From: Leptotrichia buccalis C-1013-b
Lineage (GTDB): Bacteria > Fusobacteriota > Fusobacteriia > Fusobacteriales > Leptotrichiaceae
Length of the DNA: 64,000 bases
Direction of reading: 5' to 3'
Assembly (NCBI RefSeq): GCF_000023905.1
Contig: NC_013192.1
Location: 1,116,001 to 1,180,000 of the forward strand
Below, piece after piece: positions 40,678 to 64,000 of the stretch. Both the position numbers and the translations under genes were made by a program. The notes under the pieces are model-generated. The model did not search any database. It saw nothing but the letters and a program-made list of their open reading frames with translations, and was not told the DNA's origin. Within the stretch, counting starts at the first letter, position 1, and each line of letters begins with the position of its first letter.

Positions 40678-41430
40678 ATGAATGGTGTAATTTTAGAACT
40701 TTCTGCGGTAGAAGATAAAATTATAGATAATAAAAAAATGTATAGTTTTGAGATTCATAAAAGAATGTCAGAAATACTGAAAATAGATAAGCGAGAGGAA
40801 TTGAGAGTTTCAAATATTTTTGGTGAATTTTTTAATGAAAGCATAAAATTGGAAAAAGGAGAAAAATATAAGATTAGAGTAATTCCTAAAACGCAAGAAA
40901 TTTTTTTAAAATTACAAGATCAATTGTTTCAATTAGCTATAAATAAAGAAAATCTTGTAATAGGAGATGGAATTTTTCAGTTAGTTGGAATTATAACCAA
41001 AAATGATACTTGGTGTGGTGAATATGATTTTGATAAAGAGATAAAAGCGTTAGATGTAGGAACACTGAGCTTTTATGAAAAAGTAAATTTAAAAATTGTT
41101 AATCCTATTTTAGTAAAAAGAAAGTCAATTTTTGGATTTGAAAAAATATTAAAAATTATTTTGCAGAATGTGGAAGAAGATACAGGTTTTAAAACACAGG
41201 AAATGGAAGAAAGTATTTTAAATTCAATTACAATAAAAAGAGAACTGTATAGAGAAAAAAGGGTAAATTTACTGAATGGTGAAATAAAAAAAGTTTATTT
41301 AGGAGATATAGAGCTTGTGTTACAAGGATACCATGGGAAGATACTTTTGATTCTTCTTCAGTATGTGAAATATGTTGGTGTTGGAGAATTTAGAGAGTAT
41401 GGATTTGGAGAAATTATAAGTAGAAGTTAA
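40678..41430 (+). CDS. cas6: Cas6 crRNA-processing endoribonuclease
   Basis: 250 residues. The RAMP fold is shown by the closing Gly-rich loop KYVGVGEFREYGFGEI, typical of Cas6. The first half (VILELSAVEDKII... SFEIHKRMSEIL) fits the first ferredoxin-like domain. It would cut CRISPR precursor RNA in the repeat. AAGGAAGGG lies before the ATG. A second Cas6-like protein is encoded at the other end of the operon (49800), which is unusual. Confidence 0.75.
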   Translation: MNGVILELSAVEDKIIDNKKMYSFEIHKRMSEILKIDKREELRVSNIFGEFFNESIKLEKGEKYKIRVIPKTQEIFLKLQDQLFQLAINKENLVIGDGIFQLVGIITKNDTWCGEYDFDKEIKALDVGTLSFYEKVNLKIVNPILVKRKSIFGFEKILKIILQNVEEDTGFKTQEMEESILNSITIKRELYREKRVNLLNGEIKKVYLGDIELVLQGYHGKILLILLQYVKYVGVGEFREYGFGEIISRS

Positions 41431-41455
41431 TTCCTAAACCTATTTAAAGTATAAT
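41427..41455 (+). promoter_or_regulatory. Weak promoter candidate before cas10
   Basis: A perfect TATAAT at 41450-41455 with a poor -35 (TTAATT) 17 bases upstream. It would let cas10 and the RAMP genes be made separately from the radical SAM-cas6 part. Confidence 0.35.
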
Positions 41456-41515
41456 TAATAATAAAGATTAAATTAAAACATAAAAATTATTTAAAATGAA
41501 TTTTAAGGAGGCAAA

Positions 41516-43441: not shown

Positions 43442-45302
43442 AATAGGATATGAAGTGAAATTGCTGACACCAGCAAATACAGCTGAAACTGGTACGATTG
43501 GAAAGGAAATTGATGTTGAAATAAAAAGAGATAAAAATGGAATGCCATATTTTTCAGCTAAACATATAAAAGGAATATTTAGAGGAAAAATTTTAGAATT
43601 TAGAAATGCTTTTGCTGGGATTAATGAAAATGTTTTTGAAGAATATTTCGGAGATAATTTAAATGGAGAAAAATTTTCAGAAAAATATTTTGGCAGCGAA
43701 GGGAATAATCCGAGTAAGATTAGATTTTCAGATTTAAAATTAAAAACCGAAAAAAATTTAGAGAAAATTAATCATAAAATTGGGGATAGATATGGTGTAA
43801 AAATTAACAGAAAAACAAGAGTAGCAGAAGACAACTCATTATTTAATTATGAATTTGTAAAATCTAAAAATATTTTTGTAGGAAATTTTGAGTTAAGTAA
43901 TAAGTTTTTTGAAAAAGAGGAAAATGAAGAAAATTTAGAAAAGAAATTAAAATTTTTGTTGGCTAGTTTTCTTCATATTGATAAAATTGGAGGTTTGAAA
44001 TCAAGAGGATTGGGGAAAGTTGAAATTCGATTTACTTCTGTAGGAATTGATGAAAAATGTGATTTGAATGAAAAGAGTAGTAGATTTGAAACAGTAAAAG
44101 AAATATCAGAAATTATATTAGAAGATAGATTAAAAAAATCAAACTTAAAGGAATTAGGAAAAGTAGAAAAATACAGTTATACTTTGAACTTTTTGGAAGT
44201 TTCAGTACTTCAAGGAAAAGTCAGACAAAATGCAGTTGGACTGAGAAATTCTTTGCAAGGATCTTCGATAAGAGGAGCTGTTATTCAGTATGGATTGGAT
44301 AATAATTTTAAAATTGAAGATTTATTGAAAATAAAAATTGCTGAAGTGAAAAAAATTGTGAAAAAAGGTGGAGATGAGAAAGAAGAATTCAAATTAGCAA
44401 GTGGATTTAAAACGAAATATCCTGTAAAAAATAATAAACCAGAAAAAATTGATAAAGCGATTAGTGTGATGAAAGAATACAAAACGTATTCTAAAGATGA
44501 AAGTGGAATAAAATTTGAAAGGGATTCATTGTCATTATTGAATGCGGAAGGGACTGAATTGAGCATAAAAATTGATGAAAAAACACGAACTACGAAAGAA
44601 AGTTATTTGTTTAGTACAGAATATATGGATTTGACTAATGTAGAAAAAGAGGAGGGAATAAGTTTTAAGGGGATTGTAGAAATTCCAGAAGGACTGTTTG
44701 AAATTGGGAAGGAATATGAATTAAAAATTGGGAAGTATAAAACAAAAGGGTTTGGAAAAGTAGAAATTAAGTTTGAAAAATATTCTAAAAAACAAGGTAT
44801 GAGTATTAGAGATAGAATCGAAAAATTGAATAATCAAATTAAAGAAGATTTTGTAAGATTTGATGATGAAAATAATAAAAAATCTGAAGAAGAAAGAGAA
44901 AAAGTCTGTTCTGGAGATGAAAAATTAAAAGAGGGGAAGCAAAAATTGATAACATTTGATTTTCTTTCAGATATGATTTTGCCATTTAATGAAGTTAGCA
45001 ATGTTGGAGATCAGATTTTAATATTATTTGATGAAAATTTTGGAGAAAAATTAACTTTAAATAATAGAAGAACTTTTGTGAATGTAGAGAAATTGAGAGG
45101 ATATAATATCATAAACAATTCAAGAAAAATGGATGAAATAGTTATAACTCAAGGAAGTGTAATTTCTTATTGTGTTGATAATGAAAATTTAGAGGGAATT
45201 TTGGGATATTTAGAAAAAATAGAGGAAAATGGAATTGGACTTAGAAGAAATGAAGGCTTTGGAAGAGTTAGAATTTGTAGTGAGAGAGAATGTGGAAAAT
45301 AG
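43431..45302 (+). CDS. Multi-RAMP fusion protein of the type III complex
   Basis: 623 residues from a GTG start, chosen because AAAGGAGG lies 9 bases before it inside the cas10 end. Three Gly-rich RAMP loops are seen: GGLKSRGLGKV (about 182), IGKYKTKGFGKV (about 435) and GIGLRRNEGFGRV near the C-terminus. FSAKHIKGIFRG and LQGSSIRGAVIQ are the matching phosphate-binding segments of domains 1 and 2. The third loop is on a shorter domain. Fused RAMPs of this type occur as Csx10-like subunits in type III-D relatives, which is my best guess. Confidence 0.7.
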   Translation: MGIKIGYEVKLLTPANTAETGTIGKEIDVEIKRDKNGMPYFSAKHIKGIFRGKILEFRNAFAGINENVFEEYFGDNLNGEKFSEKYFGSEGNNPSKIRFSDLKLKTEKNLEKINHKIGDRYGVKINRKTRVAEDNSLFNYEFVKSKNIFVGNFELSNKFFEKEENEENLEKKLKFLLASFLHIDKIGGLKSRGLGKVEIRFTSVGIDEKCDLNEKSSRFETVKEISEIILEDRLKKSNLKELGKVEKYSYTLNFLEVSVLQGKVRQNAVGLRNSLQGSSIRGAVIQYGLDNNFKIEDLLKIKIAEVKKIVKKGGDEKEEFKLASGFKTKYPVKNNKPEKIDKAISVMKEYKTYSKDESGIKFERDSLSLLNAEGTELSIKIDEKTRTTKESYLFSTEYMDLTNVEKEEGISFKGIVEIPEGLFEIGKEYELKIGKYKTKGFGKVEIKFEKYSKKQGMSIRDRIEKLNNQIKEDFVRFDDENNKKSEEEREKVCSGDEKLKEGKQKLITFDFLSDMILPFNEVSNVGDQILILFDENFGEKLTLNNRRTFVNVEKLRGYNIINNSRKMDEIVITQGSVISYCVDNENLEGILGYLEKIEENGIGLRRNEGFGRVRICSERECGK

Positions 45303-45325
45303 GAAATTTAATGTAGGAGAAAATT

Positions 45326-45835
45326 ATGTACAACTTTATACCTGAAAGAAAGAATAAAATAGAAAAAAGTGAAAGTTTAGAGAAGAATTTAAGTGTAGAA
45401 GAATTATTTTTAAAAGATATTGATGAAGAATTTGTGGATAATTTAGAAAAAGAGAAAACACTGAAAAAATTTTTAGAAAACGATAAATTTAAAGAAATAA
45501 TTTCTGATATAGAAACAGAAGAAAAAGGAATGTTAAATCTGGCTCAGTTTAAAAGATTTTACGATTTTATAAAAGAAAAAAAATTTGATCTTCATGATAA
45601 AGAAAAAAAAGTAAAAGATTTTATTGAGAAACAAAGAGAGAGAAAAATTGCAACAAAATTTTATGAGTTTGTAAAGGAAGAATTTATTGAAAAACCTTTA
45701 AAAACAAAAGAAAAAGAATTAACTGATGAATTTAGAAAATCAGAATCTAAAAAAAATAAACAAAATTTCCAAGTATTAGAAAAATATTTGTTGTATATTT
45801 TTGGGAAAAAAAGAATGGAAAAAGAATTTAGATAA
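45326..45835 (+). CDS. Small helical protein, candidate Cas11-like subunit
   Basis: 169 residues, charged and almost wholly helical, starting MYNFIPERKNKIEKS. No RAMP loop. Type III complexes have a small helical subunit (Cas11/Csm2/Cmr5) of about this size between the backbone genes, and position and composition fit, but I see no motif that proves it. GGAG lies before the ATG and the RAMP gene follows after 24 bases. Confidence 0.5.
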   Translation: MYNFIPERKNKIEKSESLEKNLSVEELFLKDIDEEFVDNLEKEKTLKKFLENDKFKEIISDIETEEKGMLNLAQFKRFYDFIKEKKFDLHDKEKKVKDFIEKQRERKIATKFYEFVKEEFIEKPLKTKEKELTDEFRKSESKKNKQNFQVLEKYLLYIFGKKRMEKEFR

Positions 45836-45859
45836 AGTAAAGGAAACGGAGGAAGAATA

Positions 45860-46675
45860 ATGGATTTTTCAACATTTAAAAATAAATATATCTTAACAGG
45901 GAAAATAGTTGTTTTGAATGCTCTACATATAGGAAGTGGAAGAGAAAAAGATGATAGAGATGCCCCTTTTATATCATTAGATGATGATAAAAATTTTTAT
46001 ATTCCTGGATCAACTTTTAGAGGATATTTAAGCACAAAATTAGAAAGATTTTTAGATAGTGGGAATGGATTTAAAATAAAAAATAATGGCGAAGAATTAA
46101 ATGAAGCTGATGTAAAATTGATATTTGGATATACTAACTTAGATAAAGAAAAAAATTTAGATGTAAAAAAAAGAGTTGTAGCGAAGTTTTTAAATAAAAA
46201 AATAGAAGAAATCGGAGAAGAAGAAGTTAATAAAAATCTAAAAGACTTGAAATCTTTGGCTGGAAGAATACATATATCTGACATGCCTGTATTAAAAGAT
46301 GTCAAATATGTAACAAGAGATGGAATAAAAATTGATAGAAATACAGGAGCTACTAAAAAAGGAGCAAAATTTGATTATGATGTAGTTCCCGCAGGAACAG
46401 AATTTGACTTAAATATTGAATTGGAAAATATAGAAAATTACCAATTGGATTTAATAGGATTGGCGTTAAATGATATTTTAAAAGATAACGGTGATTTATT
46501 TGGTGGTAAAACTTCAAGAGGAATTGGAAAATGTAGATTAAAAGATTTAAAAATGAAGTATGTAACATCAGATGATAAAGAAAAATTGAAAAAATATATT
46601 TTTGAAGGAAAATTTCCATATGAAATTAAAGAGCAAGAAAAAATATTTAAAACAGAGAATCTTAGTTTAGATTAG
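45860..46675 (+). CDS. Csm3-like RAMP (Cas7 backbone subunit)
   Basis: 271 residues. The start LTGKIVVLNALHIGSG and the loop YIPGSTFRGYLSTKL match Csm3. Asp residues in DDRDAPFI sit where Csm3 places its target-cleaving Asp, so this subunit may cut target RNA every 6 bases. The closing loop is FGGKTSRGIGKC. GGAGGAA lies before the ATG. With the next RAMP it would form the crRNA-holding backbone. Confidence 0.78.
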   Translation: MDFSTFKNKYILTGKIVVLNALHIGSGREKDDRDAPFISLDDDKNFYIPGSTFRGYLSTKLERFLDSGNGFKIKNNGEELNEADVKLIFGYTNLDKEKNLDVKKRVVAKFLNKKIEEIGEEEVNKNLKDLKSLAGRIHISDMPVLKDVKYVTRDGIKIDRNTGATKKGAKFDYDVVPAGTEFDLNIELENIENYQLDLIGLALNDILKDNGDLFGGKTSRGIGKCRLKDLKMKYVTSDDKEKLKKYIFEGKFPYEIKEQEKIFKTENLSLD

Positions 46676-46685
46676 GAGAAGAAAA

Positions 46686-47591
46686 ATGGAAAAAGAATTT
46701 TTAAAATTAGAAAATAAATTGGTTTTAGAATTAGAAATTGAACCTATTTCTCCTTTAATTATAAAATTGGGAGATGGTTCTGAAGAAGAAAATAGCAATA
46801 AAGAAAAAAGTGAAAGTGTAATATCATTTGTGACTTCAGATTCTCCAAGAGGGAATTTAGTGGAATATGATAAAAATAAAAAAAATAAAGATTCTAGAGA
46901 AGGAGAAATATTTATTCCTGGTTCTACATTAAGAGGATTATTTAGAGAAAAATTTAATAAAATTTACGATATAATAAAAGATGATGAATCAAATTTTAAA
47001 GAAAAAAACAAAAATCATAGAGAAGTTAATAATTTATTTGGTTGGATAGAAGGAGAAGAAGCTCAAAAAGGTAGAATTTTTATAGAAGATGCTTATCTTG
47101 AAAAAGAGGAATTGAGAAAAAATTTTTATTTAAAAAATATTGACGAAGCATTGAGTGAAGTGATAATGAAAAGAGACATAACTCCAATAGATCAGTTTAC
47201 TGGAAAAGCAGTTGTACCACTAAACTATGAATGTACAATGGAAAAATTTGAAACAGAATTGATTATAAATAATATTAGTTTGGAAGAAATGAAAAATATT
47301 TATTTTATTTTAAGAGATAGCTACTTAGGAGAAATTAGATTAGGAAATTCTAAAACAAGAGGATTTGGACAAGTAAAATTTAATATTAAAAGTATGGTTA
47401 TTGAAAATTATAGAGATAAAACAAAATTTGTAGTTAATTTAAAGAATTATTTCGAGATTGATTTTTTTAATTCAATAAAATTAGGAAATGAATTTTTAAA
47501 AGAAAATTTGAGGTTAAAAAAAGAATTTAAAGAAATAAATGTAAAAAATCCAAATGAGTTTATAAAGGCACTTTTTAGAGAGGTGGAATAA
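46686..47591 (+). CDS. RAMP protein, second Cas7-like subunit
   Basis: 301 residues. The segment FIPGSTLRGLFREKF and the Gly-rich end GNSKTRGFGQVKF define the RAMP fold. It is related to the preceding Csm3-like protein but has an acidic insertion (EEENSNKEKSES) after the first strand and a long C-terminal tail of about 60 residues. It overlaps the next gene by one base (TAATG). Confidence 0.75.
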   Translation: MEKEFLKLENKLVLELEIEPISPLIIKLGDGSEEENSNKEKSESVISFVTSDSPRGNLVEYDKNKKNKDSREGEIFIPGSTLRGLFREKFNKIYDIIKDDESNFKEKNKNHREVNNLFGWIEGEEAQKGRIFIEDAYLEKEELRKNFYLKNIDEALSEVIMKRDITPIDQFTGKAVVPLNYECTMEKFETELIINNISLEEMKNIYFILRDSYLGEIRLGNSKTRGFGQVKFNIKSMVIENYRDKTKFVVNLKNYFEIDFFNSIKLGNEFLKENLRLKKEFKEINVKNPNEFIKALFREVE

Positions 47592-48016
47592 TGGAATTTA
47601 AAAAATTTGATAAAGAGAAAATGAAAGAAGAATTACGAAATGATATTTATAATTTAGTTTATATAAACTATGAAAAAGAAAATGGAATAAAAATATTTAA
47701 AAATGAAGGAAATGCTTTAAATTTACTATCTGAAAGTGACTTTGAAAATTTTTATAAGATTTACCTTTTTAATAATAATTTTATGAAAACAATTTATCAA
47801 TTTGGAGAAGACGATTACAGGTATTCAGAAGTAAATTCAGAAGACTTTGATGAAAATACTAAAAAGTTTAGAGAAATATTGATAAAAATTAAAGAAAATC
47901 CAGATGGGAAAAAAGTTAATCGTTTAAAAGTTTTAACTGGAGAAAATAAAATTACTAAAAAAGAGATTGTTCAGTTTCTAGAATTTTTGGGAGGTGAAAA
48001 AAATGGGAAAAAATAA
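47591..48016 (+). CDS. Small protein of the type III operon, unknown role
   Basis: 141 residues, highly charged and helical. Its ATG shares one base with the previous stop, and its end overlaps the next gene by 14 bases, so translation is tightly coupled. It could be a second small subunit (Csx19- or Cas11-like) or a linker protein. No motif is seen to decide. Confidence 0.55.
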   Translation: MEFKKFDKEKMKEELRNDIYNLVYINYEKENGIKIFKNEGNALNLLSESDFENFYKIYLFNNNFMKTIYQFGEDDYRYSEVNSEDFDENTKKFREILIKIKENPDGKKVNRLKVLTGENKITKKEIVQFLEFLGGEKNGKK

Positions 48017-49766
48017 TGTGATTCCAATAAAACAATATCCATATAATTTTGTATCACTTGGAGAAAAAGTTATAGATAGAGGAAAAAGAGAAGTAGGAAC
48101 AAATACTGGAAAATTTAAATGTAAATTAATTACGAAAAGTCCTTTGTTTATAGGTGGGAAAAAAATAGATGACGCAGGTCATACTTTAGAATATTTTTAT
48201 AAAGAAAATGAAAGATTGACTATTCCAGCAAGTTCCTTAAAAGGAGCAATAAGGAATATAGTAGATGTTTTAACAAATAGTGTAATTAGAAATATTGAAG
48301 ATGAAAGATTGGAAGAAAGATTAAAACCTAATAGAGAAAGTATAGTTAAATATGGAATAATAGAATCCCTTCCTAAAGATGGGGAAGATGGTATTATTAG
48401 ATTGGCTCATAGGGTAAAAGTGAAAAAGGAAATTTTATCTAAAAAATCTCCTACTTATGATAAAAAAGGTAAGATATATAAAATTTATATGAAAGAAAAA
48501 ATAAAAAAAATTGATAAAATAGAAACAGAAAAAGAATACCAAGAATTATTAGGAAAAAAAGATGGGAAAGGTGTAATTACAGTAACAATATGGGTTGCTT
48601 CTGAAAGACCGAAAGAAAAATATGAAAAAATACTAGTCAAAACAAATGAAATATTATACCGTTTTACTAAGAAGGAACTTGAAGATATAGAATATCTCAT
48701 CAAACAAAGAAGTGATAGAGATAAAAAAGAAAATAAAGATTTTTATTATAAAAGTAGAAAAGGCGGAAGTGAGAAAAATTTTTTCAAGTTAAAAGTTGGT
48801 GATCCGATCATAATGTATAAAAAAAATACTAAAGATGATATGGTTCATTTAGTTTTTTCTGAAATACCTAGAATAAGATATAAATTTTCTCCATTAGATT
48901 TAGTCCCAAAAAAGTTTCAACCTAGTGATTCATTGGAAAAATTATCTTTTTCAGAAAAATTATTTGGAACAATAGGGGATAATACCAAAAAAGATAATAA
49001 TAAAGAGGGTGATTTAGTTGCTTTAGAAGGAAGAGTATTTTTTGAAGATGCTAAAATAATTAATAAAAATCCTAAAATAATAAATAATGGGAAATTAGTT
49101 ATATTAAAACCTTTTGGAGAACCTCATCCTACACAGGTATCTTTTTATTTAAATAGAAAAGATTACAATAGTAATGCAGAAGAAGGAATATTTATAAAAG
49201 GAAGAAAATTTTATTGGCATCATAGAGATAAAATAGAAAAAGATTTTAAAACATTTTCTAACTCAATAACAATGAATAGTAGAGAAAAATATAATTCAAG
49301 TTTAGAATTATTAGATTATGGAAATGAATTTGAATTTGATGTTCATTTTGAAAATTTAATGGATTCAGAGCTTGGAGTATTAATTTATGCTTTAGAACTA
49401 GAAAATGGATTATTACATAAAATAGGTAGAGGAAAAGCATTTGGATTTGGAAGTTGTAAAATAATAATTGAAGAATTTAATTTGGAAAATAGAAATAAAT
49501 ATAGTAATTTTTCAGAAAGTATATTTGAAAGTGGCAAAAAAGAAAAATATATTAATAAAGCAAAAGAAAAGTATATTAATGAAAGAGCTAATGTTGAAGA
49601 ATTAAAAATAATACTTTCACAAACAAATAATCTAGATTTTAGTAAAAGTCCTTTTCCAGAAGAAAATGGTAGAACTCCAGGGAAAAATACACTAAATTGG
49701 TTTTTAAACAAAAAATCAAAAGGAGAATTAATTTTAGAAGGAATATTAAAAATATCTGGAAAATAA
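48003..49766 (+). CDS. Large RAMP protein, TIGR03986-like
   Basis: 587 residues. I chose the ATG at 48003 behind GGAGGTG; a GTG three codons earlier overlaps that site. The opening PYNFVSLGEKVIDR and TIPASSLKGAIRNIVD recall the TIGR03986 CRISPR RAMP family, and the closing loop IGRGKAFGFGSCK completes the fold. A middle insertion of about 250 residues separates them. In related loci this protein is with Cas10 and fused RAMPs; its exact place in the complex is not known to me. Confidence 0.72.
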   Translation: MGKNNVIPIKQYPYNFVSLGEKVIDRGKREVGTNTGKFKCKLITKSPLFIGGKKIDDAGHTLEYFYKENERLTIPASSLKGAIRNIVDVLTNSVIRNIEDERLEERLKPNRESIVKYGIIESLPKDGEDGIIRLAHRVKVKKEILSKKSPTYDKKGKIYKIYMKEKIKKIDKIETEKEYQELLGKKDGKGVITVTIWVASERPKEKYEKILVKTNEILYRFTKKELEDIEYLIKQRSDRDKKENKDFYYKSRKGGSEKNFFKLKVGDPIIMYKKNTKDDMVHLVFSEIPRIRYKFSPLDLVPKKFQPSDSLEKLSFSEKLFGTIGDNTKKDNNKEGDLVALEGRVFFEDAKIINKNPKIINNGKLVILKPFGEPHPTQVSFYLNRKDYNSNAEEGIFIKGRKFYWHHRDKIEKDFKTFSNSITMNSREKYNSSLELLDYGNEFEFDVHFENLMDSELGVLIYALELENGLLHKIGRGKAFGFGSCKIIIEEFNLENRNKYSNFSESIFESGKKEKYINKAKEKYINERANVEELKIILSQTNNLDFSKSPFPEENGRTPGKNTLNWFLNKKSKGELILEGILKISGK

Positions 49767-49799
49767 AAATTAAGAAAAATATTGAAAGGATAGTTATCA

Positions 49800-50450
49800 G
49801 TGAAATACTCAATATTAAAATTCAAAAGAAACGAAAAGCATACAATGAGAGACCTAGAAAAATTAAGAGGTTTTTTGGCAGATAAATATAAAGAAAATGT
49901 GTTATTCCATAATCATTTATCAGACGGATATAATTATTCGTATCCTAAGTTGCAGTATAAATTGATTACTAATATGCTTTCTGTGATGGGAATTGGTGAA
50001 GATGTTACTGAGATAAATAAGAAACTTTTTGAAGAAATTGATTATTTGAATATTGATGGGAATTTGATTTTTGATATTCAGAAAGAAATTGAAATTTTTG
50101 ATGATGAAATAGAGTTTATGGGGGATAAAATGTATGAATATAGATTTGTGACGCCGTATTTACCATTAAATGACAAAAATTTTTCTAAATACTTGAGGAG
50201 AGAGTACACATTGGAACAAGCAATTACGAATAACATTTTAGAAGTATTAAAAGGTTTGGGAATTTGGCTTGAGAAAGAAAATAAAATTTATGTTTCGGCA
50301 GATTTGCAAATAACTTCAAGAGATTTGAAAAATGTAAATATGATAGCGTTTATCGGAAATTTTTATACAAACATAAAATTTCCAGATTATTTCTCACTTG
50401 GAAAAAGAAAAAATTTAGGTTATGGAACGTTTGTGAAAGTTGAGAAATAA
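49800..50450 (+). CDS. Cas6b-like protein
   Basis: 216 residues. The pattern LRGFLADKY...VLFHNHLSDG, YPKLQYKLI, then YRFVTPYLPLN and the closing SLGKRKNLGYGTFVKV fits the Cas6b-like group of crRNA-processing proteins. The His residues in FHNHLSDG are candidate catalytic or RNA-binding residues. The start is a GTG at 49800 behind GAAAGGA. It is the last gene of the operon, before the hairpin at 50502. Two Cas6-type proteins in one operon suggest two repeat types, or one that has become a structural part. Confidence 0.7.
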   Translation: MKYSILKFKRNEKHTMRDLEKLRGFLADKYKENVLFHNHLSDGYNYSYPKLQYKLITNMLSVMGIGEDVTEINKKLFEEIDYLNIDGNLIFDIQKEIEIFDDEIEFMGDKMYEYRFVTPYLPLNDKNFSKYLRREYTLEQAITNNILEVLKGLGIWLEKENKIYVSADLQITSRDLKNVNMIAFIGNFYTNIKFPDYFSLGKRKNLGYGTFVKVEK

Positions 50451-52748: not shown

Positions 52749-52760
52749 GGAGGATATGAA

Positions 52761-53662
52761 ATGTTTCCGATATATATGTGGGTAAAAGGATATAAAGGGC
52801 TAGAAAATTTTGGAATTACTTTTGATAATAATTATAAAATTACTTTTGAAGATAGAATAATAATTAATAAAGCAAAAACTGATAATAATATAGAAAATTT
52901 TTATTCTATTGATAAAACAATAGGAAATATAGATAGTGTTAATTTGTTGATTGGGAAAAATGGGAGTGGGAAGACAAGTATTTTACAAGTATTAGGCTTT
53001 GGAGATTCTAAATTAGGAATTTTAGAAGGAGATGATTTAGATGAAGAAGACTTCCTTCCCTATAGAAATAGTACGAATAGTATGATTCTCTATAAATTTA
53101 CGAATGACAAAAATTTTATTCTTGAAATACGTGAAAAAGATGGGTTTAGAAAATTAATCTTTATAAAGGTAGGAAAAGATAAAAAAATAACAATAGAAAA
53201 CAAAACAGAACATTATTATGATAACATAAAAAAAATAGGAATGATAAAGTTTTCATTAAAAAAGAAAATTATGAACACTGATTTAAGAAGATTGAATTTT
53301 ATTAGTGAGTATCGAAGAAAAGATAGTATTCATAAATTAAATATGGGATTTGGAAATGGAAGTAAAAAAAATATATATAATTATTTAACCAATATAAATC
53401 GAAAAAATAATGATAATTTTGAAAATGCATATCTAGTACTACTAATTCCTAATTTATATGAAAAATTTAAAGAATATTTAGAAAATATAGAGTATTCAGA
53501 TATAGATTTAAATATAATTGATGATACTTTTAAGTTATATAATATAAACAAAAGTAATTCAAAGGATATTATTGTAAATAATTATTTGAATTTTCTTTAT
53601 TTAGCAAAAATATTGAGAGATTTTGATAAAAAATCAAAAAAAAAAATTATTGAAAAAAGAAA
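52761..53662 (+). pseudogene. N-terminal half of an AAA defence ATPase, cut at an insertion sequence
   Basis: About 300 native codons. The N-terminus MFPIYMWVKGYKGLENFGI and Walker A LLIGKNGSGKTS (about residue 70) are typical of SMC/RecF-like defence ATPases. The chain goes on through a helical region to KKIIEKRKD, where the ISLre2-type element starts; a further 36 codons come from the element. No signature, Walker B or switch follows after the element. These parts exist in the fragment at 37351-38424. GGAGG lies before the ATG. Confidence 0.75.
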
Positions 53663-55262: not shown

Positions 55263-55907
55263 CTATCTTCCACAAATTTTTTTGTAATAGCAATCTCGGC
55301 ATTTTGTACCGCCTTCTATTTCTATTGGGTATCGCTCAGTTTCAATTATTTTTAATGCTTCCGCAGCACTTTCTTTTACTTTTTCCAAATTTTTATTTGT
55401 ACATTCTATTTTCTTTAATGATAGACCATTTAAAAACAAAATATACCCTTTTTGAGATTTAATTTTATACTTTTCTTCAATTAATATTAAAAACATGGCT
55501 ACTATATATTTGTATCTATTTTCTTCTCTTGCTGTATATTTAGCATTATAGTAATAAACTGGAACTATTGTTTTGTCTTCTAAAAGAAGTATGTCGTCTA
55601 ATTTTCCATAAAAATGATATTTTTCTGAAGACAACTCTTTGTTAAATTCTCTATTATACCAGTATAGTATGTTTTCTTGTGAATTCATCATTTTTTCTAT
55701 ACTTTGTTTTTTTAATTTCAGTCTATCCCATATCCATTTCCTATTTATACTATTTTTTCCTTTCACCCTTTCCTCTTCTTTCTTGTTAGAATCTTCTTTT
55801 TTTTCTCCAAACATTTTTAGCACATTTTCATAATATATTATTCTAGGACAAAAAATATAGTCCAAAACTTCAAATATTGATATTTTCTGAGATTTAATAA
55901 CTTCCAT
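55263..55907 (-). CDS. cas4: Cas4 adaptation nuclease, catalytic motif altered
   Basis: 214 residues. The N-terminal Cys (FCPR, about residue 20) and the C-terminal CRDCYYKKIC supply the four iron-sulfur cysteines. The RecB-type core is GKLDDILLLEDKTIVPVYYYNAKYT; where other Cas4 proteins have an acidic residue and Lys (PVDYK-type), this one reads VPVYYYNAK, so the nuclease site looks degraded or shifted. An insert of about 60 charged residues (residues 35-95) is also present. It lies 15 bases after cas2. Confidence 0.8.
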   Translation of the reverse strand: MEVIKSQKISIFEVLDYIFCPRIIYYENVLKMFGEKKEDSNKKEEERVKGKNSINRKWIWDRLKLKKQSIEKMMNSQENILYWYNREFNKELSSEKYHFYGKLDDILLLEDKTIVPVYYYNAKYTAREENRYKYIVAMFLILIEEKYKIKSQKGYILFLNGLSLKKIECTNKNLEKVKESAAEALKIIETERYPIEIEGGTKCRDCYYKKICGR

Positions 55908-55922
55908 TTTTATTCACCTCTT

Positions 55923-56213
55923 TTAAAAAAATAATACTGGCTTTTCATCTTTAACAATATCTTGTTCAAAAGATAATCCCAGTAATGTTGCCTTTTTATA
56001 ATCTGCTTCACAAACAGGGAAAATATATACTGAATCTTCTCGTAAATCAATTGCTTTTTTTGTTTCCACTATAATTTCATCAACTTCATCTTTTTCCATA
56101 TTTCCTAAAAATACCGACTTCTGAACTCTATATAATCCATGTTTTTGTGCTATTTTAATAATTTCTCTTCTATTTCTATCATCTGTTATATCGTATATTA
56201 ACCAAGTCATCAT
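55923..56213 (-). CDS. cas2: Cas2 adaptation protein
   Basis: 96 residues. The first strand LIYDITDDRNR has the conserved Asp (Asp8) and the chain continues with YRVQKSVFLG as in most Cas2. It bridges two Cas1 dimers during spacer capture. I chose the first ATG of a pair (56213), with AAGGTG 7 bases upstream; a TTG two codons earlier is too close. Confidence 0.92.
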   Translation of the reverse strand: MMTWLIYDITDDRNRREIIKIAQKHGLYRVQKSVFLGNMEKDEVDEIIVETKKAIDLREDSVYIFPVCEADYKKATLLGLSFEQDIVKDEKPVLFF

Positions 56214-56272
56214 TTTCAATCACCTTCTATAAATAATTCAAAAATAGTCCTCAAGTCCCCAAAATTTTAATT

Positions 56273-57244
56273 TTACTTTGATATCAAAAAATTTGCTAAT
56301 TCGTGGCATTCAAACTGTAACTTATCTAAACTTGAAATATTTCTGTTATTGTAACGCACCTTTTTTTCCAATCTGTTATAAAAACTCTCAACCAAAACTT
56401 TTTTTCCATCGCCTACCAACATAACACTATTTCCTTCTCTTTTGAAAAAATATTTTTGAACTCTTTTTTGTGTAAAAAGTGAAAATACCGTTCTACTAGC
56501 TAAATGTCTGTAACTTTCTATTAAATCAAAAACAAGCGATTTTTTTCCATAATTATCTGTATGAATTATTCCGACATAAGGATCAAGTCCCGCAATAATA
56601 CAAGCTTTTTCAACTTTACTGTACAATATTCCAAAAGCATAGTTTAACATTGCATTAAATTCATCTTCCGCAGGGTGCATACTTCTTTTTTCAAATTTAA
56701 ATCCTTCTGGTATCAATTCCGACAATGTTTGGTAGTATATTTTTGCTGCATTTCCTTCGTACCCCATCAAAGTCCCTCTTTTTTCACTAACATTTCCTTC
56801 TACTAATTTTATTTGATAAATATATCTTTTCATTTCTTTTATTTGTTTATCCAAAAATGCTTTTTTCGCTTCTCTTTTTATCTTCAAATCTTCCAAATGT
56901 TCTGCACAATTTTTAATTTTCTGTATCAATATCTGTTTTGCCAATTCAATTCCCTTTTGAGTCCCAAATATTTCCAACTGTTTTCTTCTAATATTAGCTG
57001 TTGAACCAAATTTACTTTGCCAAAATCTTCCATACGGATTTCCAAAATCATCAACAATCACTATATCAATATTATTATCCACTGCCAATTTTATTACATC
57101 TGTTGTCAAAAAAATCCCTTTAGATAGCACTAATGATTTTATCTTCTGTGGAGCCACCGCTACCTTTTTCTCACTCGTAGTTATCTCAAACAAATCATCT
57201 CTCTTTTTTACCACTGTCCCCAAATCTGTTATATATAGTTCCAT
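56273..57244 (-). CDS. cas1: Cas1 integrase
   Basis: 323 residues, the usual length. Catalytic residues are Glu163 (GYEGNAAK), His228 (GIIHTD) and Asp240/Glu243 (VFDLIESYR). The N-terminal beta domain (ELYITDLGTVVKKRDDLF) and the helical C-terminal domain are complete. It would insert new spacers together with Cas2 and Cas4. AAAGGA lies 9 bases before the ATG. The gene order cas1-cas2-cas4 runs leftward; no array is visible next to it, only the insertion sequence. Confidence 0.95.
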   Translation of the reverse strand: MELYITDLGTVVKKRDDLFEITTSEKKVAVAPQKIKSLVLSKGIFLTTDVIKLAVDNNIDIVIVDDFGNPYGRFWQSKFGSTANIRRKQLEIFGTQKGIELAKQILIQKIKNCAEHLEDLKIKREAKKAFLDKQIKEMKRYIYQIKLVEGNVSEKRGTLMGYEGNAAKIYYQTLSELIPEGFKFEKRSMHPAEDEFNAMLNYAFGILYSKVEKACIIAGLDPYVGIIHTDNYGKKSLVFDLIESYRHLASRTVFSLFTQKRVQKYFFKREGNSVMLVGDGKKVLVESFYNRLEKKVRYNNRNISSLDKLQFECHELANFLISK

Positions 57245-57382: not shown

Positions 57383-57997
57383 CTATTCCGAAAATACTTT
57401 TTTTGCTATATTCCCTATCGTTAATGTCATCCCTGTGTCAAATACTCCACCTACTACTCCGCCTACTAATGGCATCATTTTTATGACATTCACCAAACCT
57501 TTTTGTCCAAATTTTGTAACTAATCTGAATCCCACTTGTTGATTTATTTTTATCAATATTGCTCCTGGAACTCTTTTTAACGCATTAACTGCCACTTTTT
57601 CACTAATTTTTATTCCCACATTTTTTAATATATTTGCTGCTGAACTTCCTGTTAAACCCGTATAAGCTATTGTTCTTACTTGATCGCTGTAAATATCATA
57701 CCCATTTATGTGTGCTATTGCTGCTATCATTCTTAATTGTACATAAATCACACCTGCTACATTTGTTGGTATTGCCACTGGTAATACTAATAATCCACCT
57801 AATCCTGTTATAAATCCATTTGTTCCACACAATACTGTTTGATATCCTATTAAATTGTCTATTGCTTTTTCTCTACTGCTGCTTTTTGCTAAATAATCTT
57901 CTACCAGCTCCACAACTGTTCTTTCTCTAGGTAATACCCCTTCCAGTGCTTTATTATAGCAGTTTTCCAGCAAGTTCATCATTTCTCTTTCCAACAT
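57383..57997 (-). CDS. EcsC family protein
   Basis: 204 residues. The pattern of a Gly-rich hydrophobic hairpin (NGFITGLGGLLVLPVAIPTNVAGVIYVQLRMIAAIAHINGYDI) and the closing VGGVVGGVFDTGMTLTIGNIAKK is typical of EcsC-type proteins, which are membrane-associated and of unknown activity. AGGAGGAG stands before the ATG. It lies between nrdD and cas1 on the same strand, so it is part of the locus by position. A membrane-acting ancillary protein of the type III system is conceivable. Confidence 0.75.
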   Translation of the reverse strand: MLEREMMNLLENCYNKALEGVLPRERTVVELVEDYLAKSSSREKAIDNLIGYQTVLCGTNGFITGLGGLLVLPVAIPTNVAGVIYVQLRMIAAIAHINGYDIYSDQVRTIAYTGLTGSSAANILKNVGIKISEKVAVNALKRVPGAILIKINQQVGFRLVTKFGQKGLVNVIKMMPLVGGVVGGVFDTGMTLTIGNIAKKVFSE

Positions 57998-58083: not shown

Positions 58084-59688
58084 TCATTCACATTTAAAAT
58101 GAGATTTTCTTAATTTTTCTTCTGCCTTTTTCCCGCCTTTTAATGTCTCTTTATATGACAAATATCCCGATACTCTTCTCAATTTTTTTATTTCAGCGCT
58201 TCCACAGCAGCTGCATTTTTCTTCAAATATTCCAGTAGTTTTACAATTTCCACAATAATCTAACGGGAAATTTATTCCTAAATAAATTACTCCATTTAAA
58301 ATTCCATATTTTATAACATCCATAATTGCTTCACTATTATTTAATACAGGTGTAGAAAATTCAACATACGAAATTGAACCACCATTACAGTATTCAACAA
58401 ATTTTGATTCTAATTCTAATTTTTTAAATGCGTCTAAATCTAAGTAAACTGGAATATGAAATGAGTTAGTATAAAATTCTTTAGTTTCTTCATCTTCACA
58501 AAATCTTCCACTAATTCCTTCACCTGGAGTTGCCAATACTGAAAAATTCAAACTGTATTTTTTTGTCCATTCATCTGTCAATTCTCGTATAAATTTTAAT
58601 ATTCCCTTTGATAATTCTAAATTATTCTCAATCATTTCCAATGATATTTTTTCATTCATCAAATAACTTACACAATCGAATAAACCAATAAAACCAATTG
58701 AAAGTGTTCCATTTTTAAAACTATTTTTCATATTATTATTCTCTATTGATGTTTCGGAATTTTCATAAAAATTATTTTCTAAAATATATTTAAAGTTATC
58801 AATTTCCAATTTACATAACGCTTCATATTTTTGGATTAAAATATCTTTTGATTTATCGCAAATTTCACTCAATTTTTTATAAAAATCATCTAAATCCATA
58901 CTTTCTCGTGCAATTTTTGGTAAATTTATTGAAATTGATGCAATATTTCCTCTTTTTAATGCTCCCTCTTCTCCATTCACATTTCTTGCTACCAATGTTC
59001 TACATCCCATTATTCCGACTTTTTTCTCATTAATATCTTTTACCAGGATACTGTCACAATTAAAATACGTCGGATTCATTCTCTTCCCTGTTACTCTTGC
59101 CGCTAATGAAAATAAATCATAATTTTTGTCACCGAAATCAAAATTAATCCCTTTTTTCACTTTAAAAATTATATTTGGAAAAACAAAAGGCAATCCATTC
59201 AAAACTTCACCGTGTTCAAACGCTTTCAAAAAACATCTAGTTACTTTTCTGCCATTTTCACTCGTATCTAATCCCAAATTAAACGAAACATATGCCTTTT
59301 CATAACCATTTCTCAACGGTAAATTCAAATTTTTATACAATCTTCTAATTTTTGTTATTAATTTTTCTTCAGAAATTTCTTGTACAAACTCCGCCAAATC
59401 ACTGTCAATATTAATAAATCCTATTCCACCTGACTGATCATTCGTTAAGCTCACAATAACTTGAAAAACATAGTCTAATGCCTCATCAATTTCGATTTCG
59501 CCTAAATTTTTTTTCAATTCATTCAATTTTTCTCTTAACTCAATCCCAATACAATTGTACGAAACTCCTGTATATTCCTTGTCATGAATATGAATGTATC
59601 TTTCCTCATGTAATTGATTTTTAAATTCCTCATTTTTCAAAATTCTGTATGCCGCATTTGTATTTGCGTTTGCTTGATTAACTCTCAT
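58084..59688 (-). CDS. nrdD: Short anaerobic ribonucleotide reductase (NrdD-like)
   Basis: 534 residues, against about 700 for ordinary NrdD. The N-terminal ATP-cone is absent. The C-terminus has the zinc site CGNC and CSCC, followed by RRVSGYLSYK, where the Gly would carry the glycyl radical; the usual RVCGYLG has Cys where this has Ser. The core blocks (HIHDKEY, GGIGFINIDSDL, NPTYFNCDS, MGCRTL) match NrdD. It would reduce NTPs to dNTPs anaerobically when activated by a partner. The partner gene next to it (59685-60143) is frameshifted. Confidence 0.8.
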   Translation of the reverse strand: MRVNQANANTNAAYRILKNEEFKNQLHEERYIHIHDKEYTGVSYNCIGIELREKLNELKKNLGEIEIDEALDYVFQVIVSLTNDQSGGIGFINIDSDLAEFVQEISEEKLITKIRRLYKNLNLPLRNGYEKAYVSFNLGLDTSENGRKVTRCFLKAFEHGEVLNGLPFVFPNIIFKVKKGINFDFGDKNYDLFSLAARVTGKRMNPTYFNCDSILVKDINEKKVGIMGCRTLVARNVNGEEGALKRGNIASISINLPKIARESMDLDDFYKKLSEICDKSKDILIQKYEALCKLEIDNFKYILENNFYENSETSIENNNMKNSFKNGTLSIGFIGLFDCVSYLMNEKISLEMIENNLELSKGILKFIRELTDEWTKKYSLNFSVLATPGEGISGRFCEDEETKEFYTNSFHIPVYLDLDAFKKLELESKFVEYCNGGSISYVEFSTPVLNNSEAIMDVIKYGILNGVIYLGINFPLDYCGNCKTTGIFEEKCSCCGSAEIKKLRRVSGYLSYKETLKGGKKAEEKLRKSHFKCE

Positions 59689-60143
59689 TTATAATCTCTC
59701 CTTTTTCTCTCTAATGAATAAAATTTTTGATTACTTGATCCATAAAACTTTTCTTGTATTCTCAATGCATTTATATATTTTCCAACTTTTAAATACTTTA
59801 TTTTTCTAAAATGTTTTTTGGAACTTTCTCTAAGTCATATAAAGTATAAAGTGCAGTTTCAAAATTCTTCTTGTACAAGTTCATTAATAAATTCTTCTAA
59901 GGCTTCTTTTTGCATCATAGGCTCTCCACCCGAAATAGTAATTTTTTTTACTGGCAAATTATACGCTAATATTTTTTCACATAAATCTTTTACTTCATGC
60001 TCTTTTCCGTATCGTATATCTTGTATTCTTTCATTGTGACAACCTCTACATTTTACATTACAATCTTGAAAAAATATTGTTGTTCTAATTCCAGGTATAT
60101 CTTCATATCTGCTTTTCTTAATGGATGCAATTTTTACTTTCAT
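59685..60143 (-). pseudogene. nrdG: NrdG-type radical SAM activase, two frameshifts
   Basis: The first frame (60143-59866) encodes residues 1-94 with the radical SAM cluster CNVKCRGC and the SAM loop ISGGEPMM, then stops. A one-base shift in the A-run at 59861-59864 (plus strand) restores ETALYTLYDLEKVPKN, and a second shift in the T-run at 59801-59805 restores YLKVGKYINALRIQEKF and FYSLERKRR up to a TGA that overlaps the nrdD ATG by four bases (ATGA). The original protein of about 153 residues therefore was complete and coupled to nrdD. As it stands it lacks the C-terminal third. Confidence 0.75.
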
Positions 60144-60284
60144 TGTATACCTTCATTTATTATCTCTTTACATCAACAATTTTAACAAATATTTTTCTCC
60201 TATTTTTCTCTAAAAAAACTCATTTTTTTTAGTATTTACTTTATTATAAAATTTGATAATATCATTTTTTTAGTTATACGATTG

Positions 60285-60325
60285 CTAAAAAACCATCTTA
60301 AATTTTAATTTCAAGATGGTTCTTT
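60285..60325. terminator. Bidirectional terminator before the CARF protein gene's end
   Basis: A 9-bp stem (AACCATCTT at 60291-60299 with AAGATGGTT at 60313-60321), with an A6 run on the left giving a T-tract on the minus strand and CTTTTTG on the right. It ends the two-gene CARF unit and separates it from nrdG. Confidence 0.85.
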
Positions 60326-60333
60326 TTGTTGAT

Positions 60334-62430
60334 CTATCTATATTTTAAATTTATCTTTAATCCATTTTCATAAATAATAAAATCTTCAATTTCATCTGCT
60401 TCAGGAAATTTTTCTTCAATTTTTCTTCTAATCACTTGGTTTAATCCTGTAATAATCTTTTTTAATTTAGTAACATTTTGATCTTTTATCCTAAATCTTC
60501 CCTCCATATCTTTTTTAGAAATTTCAAATTTATTTTTTTCAATATTATTAAATAATTCTACTATTGGAGCATTAATTATAGCATCTGGATTATGAAAAAA
60601 AATTTTTTCAATTTGTGTTTTTCTATCAGTTTTAGTGACTACTTTTTTTGTTTTATTCTGAATCTCGACTATATCTGATTTTTCCGATATTTTAAATGGT
60701 AATTCTATTTCACCTTTATCATATTTATCACATATTTTTTCTAATGTAAAATCGACTTCTATTTTTTTCTTCAATTTCTTTCTATCTTTTTCGTTAGAAA
60801 TATCAAATTCATCTCTTTTATCTTTTTTTCTTATAAAAGATTCTTCTTTAAGATTAATTTTTAGCATTTCTAATTTCCCTTCATCTTCAAAAGGCACATC
60901 CAACACACCTCCCTTATATCTAATTAATCCTATATTCATATCTGCCAAATTTGGTATTTCAAATTCTTCTAATTCATATTCCATACTAAATTCATCAAAT
61001 AAAATTCCTTTTATCTGTTTTATTTTTTCATTTGTCTTTTTATCTTTTGAATTTACTATACTAATTATTTTTTCTACTTTTTCTTCTTCATAGTAATCTT
61101 TCAAAATGTTTTTCACATTTTCAAAATAATAACTAGAGACCTTTTCAAAAACAGCTTGTTTTAATAACAGATAGAAAAAATAATCTGTACCATCAATTGA
61201 AATTTCTTCATCATCAATTTCAGAATCTTCATAATTTAAATCTAAATCAAAAGTTTCTTTTCCCTTTCTCTCGAGGGCTCTTTTTGCTTTTTCCTCTTCA
61301 TCATTTATTATTTCATTTTCTGTTATCCCAAAAATATTTTTACTAAATTTTAACCAATTTATATTATCATTTTCTACTCTGTACACTATTCTTAAAAGAT
61401 ACTTCACATATTCTCGCAATCTTGAAATATTTTCTGGTAAAAATTTATATTCAAATATTTTTCTCAATCCTTTGTTTAAATCATTATAAAAATCCTCAAT
61501 ATCTTCATTGTATTCTAACATTTTAAAATAATTAAATAGTTTTCCAATTTCTTCATAAAAAAATCTTAAATCATCAATCCCTACTACCTCATACAAATCT
61601 GAAACAGTTTGACAATTTGCTTTCATAATGTTTTCATTTATTTTTCTATATATTCTGTTCGATTCTTCTAATGGATCCTTCATTAAATTTAATTTAGTAA
61701 CTAAACTCATTCTAGGTCCTTGTCCTTTTTCAATTACAAACCTGTCTTTGTTATTTTTATCAACTGGTTTATAGTTAGATAACATTGTTTCTCGCCAGTT
61801 TATTGATTTTATTTGTTTTTCAACTGAAATTTTATAAAATACAATTCCTATCTCTTTCAAACCAAGTGTTGTATCTAAAACGGTATTATTTTTTGAGATT
61901 TTTCCTTCTAAAATTAAATTTATTACTTTTCTGTATAATGTATCTATACCAGTATCAATCAAAACTCCTTCTATTTTTACTATATCTTTATATTTACTAG
62001 TTTCTTTATATTCCAAAAATTTATTTTTAGTTTGCTCAGTGTATAATAAATATAATGTTTCTATGTTAGGAAATATTTTTAAATCTTTTTCAAATGGTAA
62101 GTCTTCAAGAATAGATTTTTTTTCACCAAAGCTATGACTGAAAGCTGAAACTATCTTTGTTATTTTATCTGTATCTACTCCCTCTTCTTCTAGTAATTTT
62201 TTCTCATTTAATAAATGTCTTTTAAAATCTTCTTCAAAAAGTTTTAAATCAAAATTATCTTCTTCTATTTTTATTCCTGTTTTATTATTTTTTTTATCAT
62301 AATTATCAAAATAATAATCTATTAAAAAATTGTCATCTATTTTTTCATATTTCTGAATATTTCGATTATCAATCATTAATTTCCTTATTTTTTGTGCTAA
62401 TTCTGTTCTTGAGATTCCAATTTTTTCCAT
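60334..62430 (-). CDS. Large CARF-like protein, probable cyclic-oligoadenylate sensor
   Basis: 698 residues. A Rossmann-like segment at about 115-215 has ETLYLLYTEQT, GVLIDTGIDTLYRKVINLI and NNTVLDTTLGLKEIGIVFYKI; the D-x-T-x-G-x-K block resembles motif II of CARF domains. The N-terminal 110 residues are charged and helical, and the 480 residues after the CARF-like part are unlike any effector I recognise: no HEPN Rx4-6H, PD-(D/E)xK or protease motif is evident. It follows the Csx1-like gene by 23 bases, so it is a likely second ancillary effector. Confidence 0.55.
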   Translation of the reverse strand: MEKIGISRTELAQKIRKLMIDNRNIQKYEKIDDNFLIDYYFDNYDKKNNKTGIKIEEDNFDLKLFEEDFKRHLLNEKKLLEEEGVDTDKITKIVSAFSHSFGEKKSILEDLPFEKDLKIFPNIETLYLLYTEQTKNKFLEYKETSKYKDIVKIEGVLIDTGIDTLYRKVINLILEGKISKNNTVLDTTLGLKEIGIVFYKISVEKQIKSINWRETMLSNYKPVDKNNKDRFVIEKGQGPRMSLVTKLNLMKDPLEESNRIYRKINENIMKANCQTVSDLYEVVGIDDLRFFYEEIGKLFNYFKMLEYNEDIEDFYNDLNKGLRKIFEYKFLPENISRLREYVKYLLRIVYRVENDNINWLKFSKNIFGITENEIINDEEEKAKRALERKGKETFDLDLNYEDSEIDDEEISIDGTDYFFYLLLKQAVFEKVSSYYFENVKNILKDYYEEEKVEKIISIVNSKDKKTNEKIKQIKGILFDEFSMEYELEEFEIPNLADMNIGLIRYKGGVLDVPFEDEGKLEMLKINLKEESFIRKKDKRDEFDISNEKDRKKLKKKIEVDFTLEKICDKYDKGEIELPFKISEKSDIVEIQNKTKKVVTKTDRKTQIEKIFFHNPDAIINAPIVELFNNIEKNKFEISKKDMEGRFRIKDQNVTKLKKIITGLNQVIRRKIEEKFPEADEIEDFIIYENGLKINLKYR

Positions 62431-62453: not shown

Positions 62454-64000
62454 TTATTTTATTTTACCGTATTTTTTTGAATATTTTTCAATGTCTTGTA
62501 ACGTAAATTTATTCATAATTTCTATTACGTTATTTAATAAATTTGAGCAATATGTTGTATCATTTCTTTCTCTAGTGTTAATATGTCCTGCATCATTTCT
62601 TATTTCATTCAATTTATTTATAGAATTTATTAATTCATCTATTTTATTGTCAATATTCTTAGTTTTTAGTTTTTCCACTTTTTTATAAAAATTTTCACTT
62701 TTTTCTTTCGAATCGATTTTAAAAATTTTATATTTATAAATATCAATCAAAAAGAACAGTGCCAGTGCATAATTTTTAGAATCTTTTTGTTTTCTCACAA
62801 ATTTTATTAATTCTTCATATGTTTCATTTTTTATTAATTTTACTTCTATAATTTCATATACTTTTTTATTTATTAAATCTAGTTCTTTATTATTTATTTT
62901 TTCAAATTCTTTAGATATCTCTATAATCTTTTTATATTCATTATATGTATATGCTTCTGAAATTTTTCTCATAATTTTTGATAATTTTTCATCTATCATT
63001 TTAGTATTTTCTAAAGCATTTGTATATTTTGTATAATCTTTAAATTCTGCTATTGATTTATACAAATTAATTATTTTTAAAATAGGTATTTTATAAATAC
63101 TTCCATACTCCGAGTTTAATATTCTTTCTCCATAATAAATCGAATGAATGATAACATTATCATTTAATAATTCAAACAATCTCAACGAAGTCAATAAATT
63201 AAATGGAATATCTCTAAATGAATGGGTAATATCCATATCTATTTCTATTATTTCTCGTTTTTTTACTTCTATTTCATTTTTTATTTTTAAATATAACTCG
63301 TCTACATCTCCAAAATTATCAATTTGAACATATTTTATTTTTTCATTTGGTAACATTATACCTTTATTTTTAAAATTTTCTGTTAAAATATCCCATTTCC
63401 CTGTTTCAAGTCCAAAAATATAAATTTGATTATAATCCTCTATGTAAGGCTCAAATGTGTATTGTGTTTCTATAATTTCTTTTTTTCCTTCGTTATCTAA
63501 ATACTCATAAAATATTTTTTCATATCCTTTTCCTGATTCACCTGACCCTAAATTCCAAATCAATATTTTTCTTTTTGATGAATTTCTATATTCATCGTTA
63601 TTTTCTATATATTTCCCTGATTTATTTAAAGGATGAACAATTTTATCTCTTTTATCCTTTAAATTTTTATATTTTTTATTATCACTTTCATACTTATTCA
63701 CTATTTCTAAGCCATAATTTTTTACTTTATTATGATATTTTTCATTCTTTAGTGATTTTACTTCTTTAATTTTTTCTTTTAAAATATTTTCATATTCATT
63801 TTTTAAATTTATTTTAGTTATTTTTTTATAAATATCATCAATACCTTTTAAATTAAATTGTAATTTAATATAAAATTCATCTAGTTTATTCAATAAATCC
63901 CTATTCCCAATTTCTCTTAATTTATCAATACTTCCATATTTTGTAAAAGAACTAACAGCGTCTACAAAATCCAATTTTTCTAGCACATTTGTTATATCAA
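62454..64000 (-). CDS. Csx1/Csm6-like HEPN-CARF-HEPN protein, 5' end outside window
   Basis: 510 residues from a GTG at 63986, but the frame stays open to the window edge, so the true start is probably outside. The middle (about 138-300) is a CARF domain: RKILIWNLGSG then EIDMDITHSFRDIPF, the DxTHG-type ligand motif. The C-terminus (about 380-510) is a HEPN RNase with RNDAGH (Arg463, His468). Before the CARF another helical domain ends in RDKIVH (113-118), also of HEPN form, so the protein could be a tandem of two CARF-HEPN units. Cyclic oligoadenylate would activate RNA cleavage. Confidence 0.75.
   Translation of the reverse strand, partial: DITNVLEKLDFVDAVSSFTKYGSIDKLREIGNRDLLNKLDEFYIKLQFNLKGIDDIYKKITKINLKNEYENILKEKIKEVKSLKNEKYHNKVKNYGLEIVNKYESDNKKYKNLKDKRDKIVHPLNKSGKYIENNDEYRNSSKRKILIWNLGSGESGKGYEKIFYEYLDNEGKKEIIETQYTFEPYIEDYNQIYIFGLETGKWDILTENFKNKGIMLPNEKIKYVQIDNFGDVDELYLKIKNEIEVKKREIIEIDMDITHSFRDIPFNLLTSLRLFELLNDNVIIHSIYYGERILNSEYGSIYKIPILKIINLYKSIAEFKDYTKYTNALENTKMIDEKLSKIMRKISEAYTYNEYKKIIEISKEFEKINNKELDLINKKVYEIIEVKLIKNETYEELIKFVRKQKDSKNYALALFFLIDIYKYKIFKIDSKEKSENFYKKVEKLKTKNIDNKIDELINSINKLNEIRNDAGHINTRERNDTTYCSNLLNNVIEIMNKFTLQDIEKYSKKYGKIK

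Follow-up and report, generated by a model that had tools for sequence, protein, structure and literature searches.

A short class III ribonucleotide reductase beside CARF and type III CRISPR genes of Leptotrichia buccalis: a possible optional part of defence loci

Introduction

Defence systems known to act on the nucleotide pool destroy or modify nucleotides by means of deaminases, triphosphatases or viperins, and phages themselves carry ribonucleotide reductase to raise their dNTPs. To our knowledge, ribonucleotide reductase is not recognized as a defence component, and none was found in this role in PADLOC or in a full-text literature search. The same kind of search gave no report tying the class III enzyme NrdD to CRISPR or defence, with the surveys Shah 2019 and Shmakov 2018 beyond its reach, in which a prior listing is possible. 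The closest described enzymes are the class III reductases of Prevotella copri (8p2s/8p23), phage T4 (1hk8) and S. thermophilus (9d3x). The P. copri NrdD is turned off by dATP bound on its ATP-cone, its hairpin 185-192 contacts the specificity effector, Asn114 bonds the gamma-phosphate and Gln309 contacts the substrate (PMC11226230). The short NrdD of Leptotrichia buccalis described here shares with these enzymes the fold (TM 0.87 to 8p2s) as well as the residues for catalysis, zinc binding and the glycyl radical; however, it has no cone, the hairpin is deleted, substitutions affect the NxN flap at its first Asn as well as the equivalent of Gln309, and its gene is without an NrdR box.

With regard to its genomic company, the short NrdD is found among the accessory genes of type III CRISPR systems (Csx1/Csm6, Csx20 and CARF proteins) in the same locus of four genomes. 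Unlike the CARF proteins, it carries no CARF or other cyclic-oligoadenylate-binding domain, and CARF genes also occur without short nrdD. Juk and Leo/dynamin-type genes as well as EcsC (PADLOC JukA, LeoA/LeoBC, PDC-S29) are neighbours of short nrdGD in Leptotrichia (GTPases, EcsC) and in a clostridial genome, G434 (GTPase, JukA); a ribonucleotide reductase as part of Juk, Leo/dynamin or EcsC systems was found neither in PADLOC 2.0.0 nor in the literature searched. The prokaryotic viperin (pVip) resembles the role proposed below for the short NrdD, because it would also change the nucleotide pool via radical chemistry. The activase NrdG matches the pVip models weakly via its radical SAM domain (36 bits); it modifies no nucleotides itself. 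The Leptotrichia CRISPR survey, which also assigned L. buccalis to type III-D, names no more than "putative accessory genes" (PMC6914741).

Results and discussion

The CRISPR locus of L. buccalis

The window, i.e. the whole stretch of 64,000 nucleotides that was analysed, covers C1:1116001-1180000 of the 2,465,610-bp single-contig genome of L. buccalis C-1013-b (G000); positions without a prefix refer to it. An earlier note on this DNA had placed nrdGD between CARF genes and cas1. This order is borne out by the gene calls (Table 1), whereas the EcsC gene between nrdD and cas1 had been missing from that account.

Table 1. Features of the L. buccalis locus in window positions, or in contig (C1) and L035 positions where indicated
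Feature	Position	Strand	Remarks
Short class III ribonucleotide reductase NrdD	58084..59688	minus	534 aa, without ATP-cone; intact
nrdG pseudogene	59686..60143	minus	open 94-aa N-terminal part at 59859-60143, three indels after it
Second nrdG, intact, same family	C1:1183688-1184179 (L035:7688-8179)		163-aa ORF, about 7.5 kb away, same locus
Intergenic stretch between CARF gene and nrdG	60144..60333	minus	hairpin then T at 60291-60321
CARF-family protein (PADLOC PDLC01165)	60334..62430	minus	upstream neighbour of nrdG pseudogene
CARF-HEPN-CARF-type effector	62454..63998	minus	PDLC01841 family via G009 homologue; 721 aa, extends past window end
EcsC-family protein (PADLOC PDC-S29)	57383..57997	minus	204 aa, between nrdD and cas1
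cas1	56273..57244	minus	
cas2	55923..56219	minus	
cas4	55263..55907	minus	64.8 bits, slightly below cut-off 65
Type III-D effector genes (Cas6, Cas10, Cas5-IIId/Csx10, Csm3/Cas7 proteins)	40678..50450	plus	

Several other elements were observed in and around the locus. A Septu-like pair on the plus strand between the III-D effectors and cas4 (51715-53771; PADLOC PDC-M62B, PDC-M62A) is made up of a split HNH-type first gene, broken into several ORFs, and an AAA ATPase gene. Beside the III-D genes, a MoaA-like radical SAM protein is encoded (39144-40094, plus strand), which gave a 56-bit match to prokaryotic viperin models and is probably not a viperin. Single CRISPR repeats in opposite orientation flank the 34-kb locus (about 38438-38460 and C1:1188542-1188564); arrays with the same repeat are located elsewhere (C1:1403073, C1:1616841 and smaller ones), and within the locus the repeats, if any, are degenerate. 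Finally, two related transposase-type ORFs (about 92% identical), one inside the locus (53788-55083, minus strand) and a broken one at its far side (L035:12892-14026), may have been helpers of locus duplication or movement.

A compact reductase with changed substrate contacts

The earlier description of the protein as a 534-residue NrdD without ATP-cone is confirmed by scores above the cut-offs of NCBIfam TIGR02487 (361 vs 326 bits) and Pfam NRDD (PF13597; 374 bits, cut-off 26). Its Pfam matches comprise NRDD and YjjI-like glycyl-radical models only, and a cyclic-oligoadenylate sensor or CARF domain was not found in the Pfam search. Cys46, Met227, Cys229, Asn248, the zinc ligands Cys479/482/492/495 and the radical Gly508 are kept in all complete members of the short clade defined below, Met227-Cys229-Asn248 representing the formate-type signature. 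The Ser beside the radical Gly is present as previously noted, but it is not unusual: canonical enzymes have Thr or Cys, and Ser occurs in every complete short-clade member, hence it was rejected as a mark of altered chemistry.

Other differences concern regulation and substrate binding. The protein starts at the NxN flap, the ATP-cone being missing, and the specificity-site hairpin is shortened or missing in the short NrdDs. Three positions that are invariant in 27-30 canonical sequences are changed in seven of seven short NrdDs, namely N5 to Q or L, Q130 to E and F133 to Y. N5 and Q130 correspond to Asn114 and Gln309 of the P. copri enzyme, when equivalences are taken from the alignment with an offset of four. 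An AF2 model reached a pLDDT of 89 with a 39-row alignment (55 with a six-sequence input), and its best Foldseek matches were all NrdD, including P. copri 8p2s with dTTP and GTP. The short NrdD is hence predicted to be a working reductase with altered substrate reading and without dATP feedback, the latter because the ATP-cone is absent. Its dN/dS of 0.08-0.10, compared to 0.11-0.13 for housekeeping NrdD, points to strong purifying selection without a sign of relaxed constraint. Together with the full conservation of catalytic residues, this value disfavours the former suggestion that the enzyme is now inactive.

A separate housekeeping reductase

The genome contains a second, full-length NrdD (772-aa open frame at C1:2104666), which is followed by its own NrdG and preceded by tandem NrdR-like boxes (15/16 each, 32 bp apart). 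Hence, the short nrdD does not encode the housekeeping enzyme and is not the only copy, a point on which the earlier note had made its interpretation depend. A comparison of six of the seven short-nrdD hosts found the second full-length NrdD in G000, G002, G009, G013 and G062, and as frameshifted draft sequence in Fervidicella metallireducens. NrdR boxes of comparable quality are absent in the 300 bp upstream of short nrdG in G000, G009, G002, G062 and G434, and the one 12/16 match upstream of the Fervidicella gene is at chance level; judged by these upstream regions, short nrdGD is outside the NrdR regulon. The hairpin followed by a T stretch behind the CARF gene, which is also present in G009 and G002 (three genomes in all), suggests that nrdGD has its own promoter and is not expressed by read-through from the CARF gene. 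Scans of the nrdGD upstream region for promoter and terminator consensus sequences remained at chance level.

Decay of the adjacent nrdG and an intact second copy

The nrdG gene next to the short nrdD is broken as stated before, but instead of two one-base shifts three indels (+1 near 59879, -1 near 59801 and +4 near 59710) became visible once the gene was aligned to its second copy in this genome and to the intact nrdG genes of three relatives. The reported ATGA coupling of nrdG and nrdD likewise exists as a junction, but it is a by-product of the frame shifts, and the genes overlap by 11 nt (ATGAGAGTTAA) in the intact relatives. Moreover, two hallmark glycines that are kept in all other copies are lost (DGPGIR to DIPGIR and QGC to QDC), and the dN/dS against intact copies is 0.42-0.57 over the first 94 codons. 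The three indels, the lost glycines and the raised dN/dS indicate decay rather than sequencing error. An ordinary anaerobic reductase with sequencing errors in its nrdG, as considered in the earlier note, could draw on the fact that one indel falls in an A/T run; however, it is contradicted by the same three features and by the separate full-length NrdD-NrdG pair with NrdR boxes, and we regard it as extremely improbable.

The second nrdG of the locus has a dN/dS of 0.16-0.18. It is followed by about nine codons of nrdD and then by sequence that normally comes after nrdD. Hence, the genome once had two nrdGD pairs, of which one is now without a working nrdG and the other without nrdD. Compared with G009, dS is 0.74 for the surviving NrdD, 0.68 for the surviving NrdG and 0.19 for the dead nrdG. 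These values suggest a long-standing partnership of the two survivors, with the dead nrdG acquired through recombination. An intact NrdG directly adjoins the short NrdD in G009, G013, G002, G062 and G434, and in G000 only the second copy, 7.5 kb away, is intact. Activation in trans by another NrdG, one of the possibilities raised before, would fit this arrangement: with the adjacent NrdG being dead, the short NrdD of this genome would be activated by the intact one 7.5 kb away. That the short NrdD is an inactive remnant, no longer activated in this strain, might be concluded from the clear pseudogene state of the adjacent activase. Yet an intact NrdG of the same family is encoded in the locus, its divergence from G009 matches that of NrdD, and relaxed constraint is not seen in NrdD, which makes a remnant very unlikely.

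An optional cassette in type III loci

Short nrdD is intact in the type III loci of four genomes (G000, G009, G013 and G002) and represented by remnants in a fifth (G014). The gene order in G009, G013 and G002 is GTPase, GTPase, Csx1-Csx20, Csx20, CARF-HEPN-CARF, CARF, nrdG, nrdD, GTPase, a 151-aa ORF (in two of the three), EcsC, cas1, cas2, cas4 and type III effectors; G000 and G009 have effectors of type III-D, G013 and G002 III-A-like ones. Among the 33 genomes of the family, seven encode the CARF protein that adjoins nrdG, and strong EcsC matches are found in exactly the five genomes with short nrdD or its remnant. One weaker EcsC match, in G022, is situated beside gyrase-type genes in a non-defence context. 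CARF genes and type III effectors are present without nrdGD, GTPases and EcsC in G010 and G016, which indicates that the latter genes form an optional cassette. In G014, nrdD was deleted except for a 33-codon remnant and nrdG is damaged, while the rest of the locus is kept. Between G009 and G002, the dS of nrdD is 0.13 for the short but 1.27 for the housekeeping gene, hence the locus moved recently between genera.

These data support the recruitment of nrdGD to the locus that had been proposed from the L. buccalis sequence, given the intact pairs in three more genomes and their position outside the NrdR regulon in addition to the housekeeping copy. The short nrdD is linked to the GTPases and EcsC, not to CRISPR itself. 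As a side observation, at least two of the three IRG/Leo-like GTPase genes of L. buccalis (L035:5579-9324; C1:1181579-1185324) are split by frame breaks, though intact in relatives, and the cassette appears to be decaying in this strain except for nrdD and one nrdG.

Distant members and their neighbours

Three further members were found, in G062 (Fusobacteriota, 61% identity), in Fervidicella metallireducens (48%) and in the clostridial genome G434, the nrdD of which carries one internal stop; in the draft contig of Fervidicella, nrdG has a frameshift. The seven short NrdDs, from a sample of Fusobacteriota and Clostridia-type Bacillota with four or five independent contexts, form one clade with a support of 100/99 in a tree without the phage row and 96/94 with it. 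Members are rare: a class-wide sample of 391 genomes yielded two, and 226 genomes from a single order and 398 sampled across a phylum added none. The two small classes and the plasmids searched contained no clade member, and a single-sequence scan of genome contigs gave no relative. Five Bacillota matches just over the threshold turned out to be NrdDs of the canonical type, of which four have a cone and one is truncated.

Type III cas genes accompany short nrdD in the four intact loci and the one with remnants; in contrast, cas genes are absent in the stretches read around the G062, Fervidicella and G434 members. The short nrdGD of G062 adjoins a WYL regulator and a HEPN protein, which is merely suggestive of defence. 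The neighbours in G434 are an XRE-dynamin-type GTPase, JukA and a DUF262-type protein, and those in Fervidicella are a WYL regulator, a helicase, a PIN protein, an AAA ATPase and a second radical SAM protein. The Fervidicella genes (L065:6427-14355), in which an SF1 helicase, PIN, coiled-coil, ClpB-like AAA ATPase and NrdG-like radical SAM protein are encoded behind the WYL regulator, represent an apparently uncharacterised cluster. The link of short nrdGD with defence across about five independent contexts is suggestive. Defence islands collect cargo, hence neighbourhood is weak evidence of function.

A phage relative and the likely origin

The gut phage NatCom_17901 (Ca. Heliusvirales, PV036423.1) encodes at L077:3457-6164 an NrdG, a cone-less NrdD of 564 aa and then a thymidylate kinase. 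Its NrdD was placed as sister of the short clade with a support of 100/100, on a long branch. The phage genes resemble the clade in having nrdG before nrdD with an overlap, no cone, a shortened hairpin region, the RVSGYL motif and Tyr133. On the other hand, the phage NrdD shows 38% identity, retains Asn at the first position of NxN but has Ala at the second, and carries Thr at position 130 in place of the Glu of the clade; moreover, the phage pair sits in a dNTP gene group, unlike the clade in its defence-type loci. With this one phage and its long branch as the basis, a phage origin of the short nrdGD type is likely. A search of viral contigs with a five-row alignment gave no relative, and a six-row alignment gave distant relatives only, the closest four having canonical cone-type NrdD genes.

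The phage sister is also what one would expect if nrdGD were a phage-derived passenger that hitchhikes on a mobile defence locus and aids general DNA synthesis or nothing particular. The recent movement of the locus between genera (dS about 0.13 vs 1.27) and the loss of nrdD in G014 point in the same direction. However, the strong purifying selection on the short NrdD, the survival of an intact copy each of nrdD and nrdG after the duplication and the repeated occurrence beside defence-type genes in distant hosts argue against a passenger, which we therefore consider unlikely. Similarly doubtful appears a role in supply, in which the short NrdD would provide the dNTPs needed to repair DNA, to integrate spacers or to recover from damage by CARF nucleases or other effectors. 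Such a role is consistent with the proximity to cas1-cas2-cas4, the fully conserved reductase chemistry, the ability of a cone-less enzyme to still work at high dATP, and the thymidylate kinase next to the phage sister as a dNTP-supply context. Nevertheless, the companions of short nrdD are GTPases and EcsC and not the cas genes: it is missing from two CARF/type III loci, and no cas genes are seen in three distant contexts. In addition, a housekeeping reductase is already there.

Possible function in defence

The reading that we prefer, and to which we give roughly even weight for and against, is that a feedback-free, compact class III reductase of the phage type was taken up into defence loci as an optional component and would skew nucleotide pools there. 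With its base pocket modified and no feedback by dATP, the short NrdD might reduce one or a few NTPs unbraked. The NTP/dNTP pools would then shift during infection, and phage replication could be hindered or the cell arrested. We favour this skewing of pools over dNTP supply and over a passenger, because a base-contact residue is changed and the regulation is missing; the data do not decide between them. An altered nucleotide supply during infection or adaptation, as proposed in the earlier note, may likewise be the function. A more specific version, which we put forward tentatively as possible but rather less probable, is that a phage nrdGD was turned against phages. Free of dATP control, with the Gln309 equivalent changed to Glu and an altered NxN flap, it would serve the infected cell as a catalytic effector of defence directed at a particular nucleotide, under the control of CARF/type III, JukA-GTPase or WYL sensors.

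If this is true, defence would make use of the opposite enzyme of nucleotide metabolism, taken from the phages. Moreover, the changed residues of the short NrdD provide a direct test of substrate choice in class III reductases.
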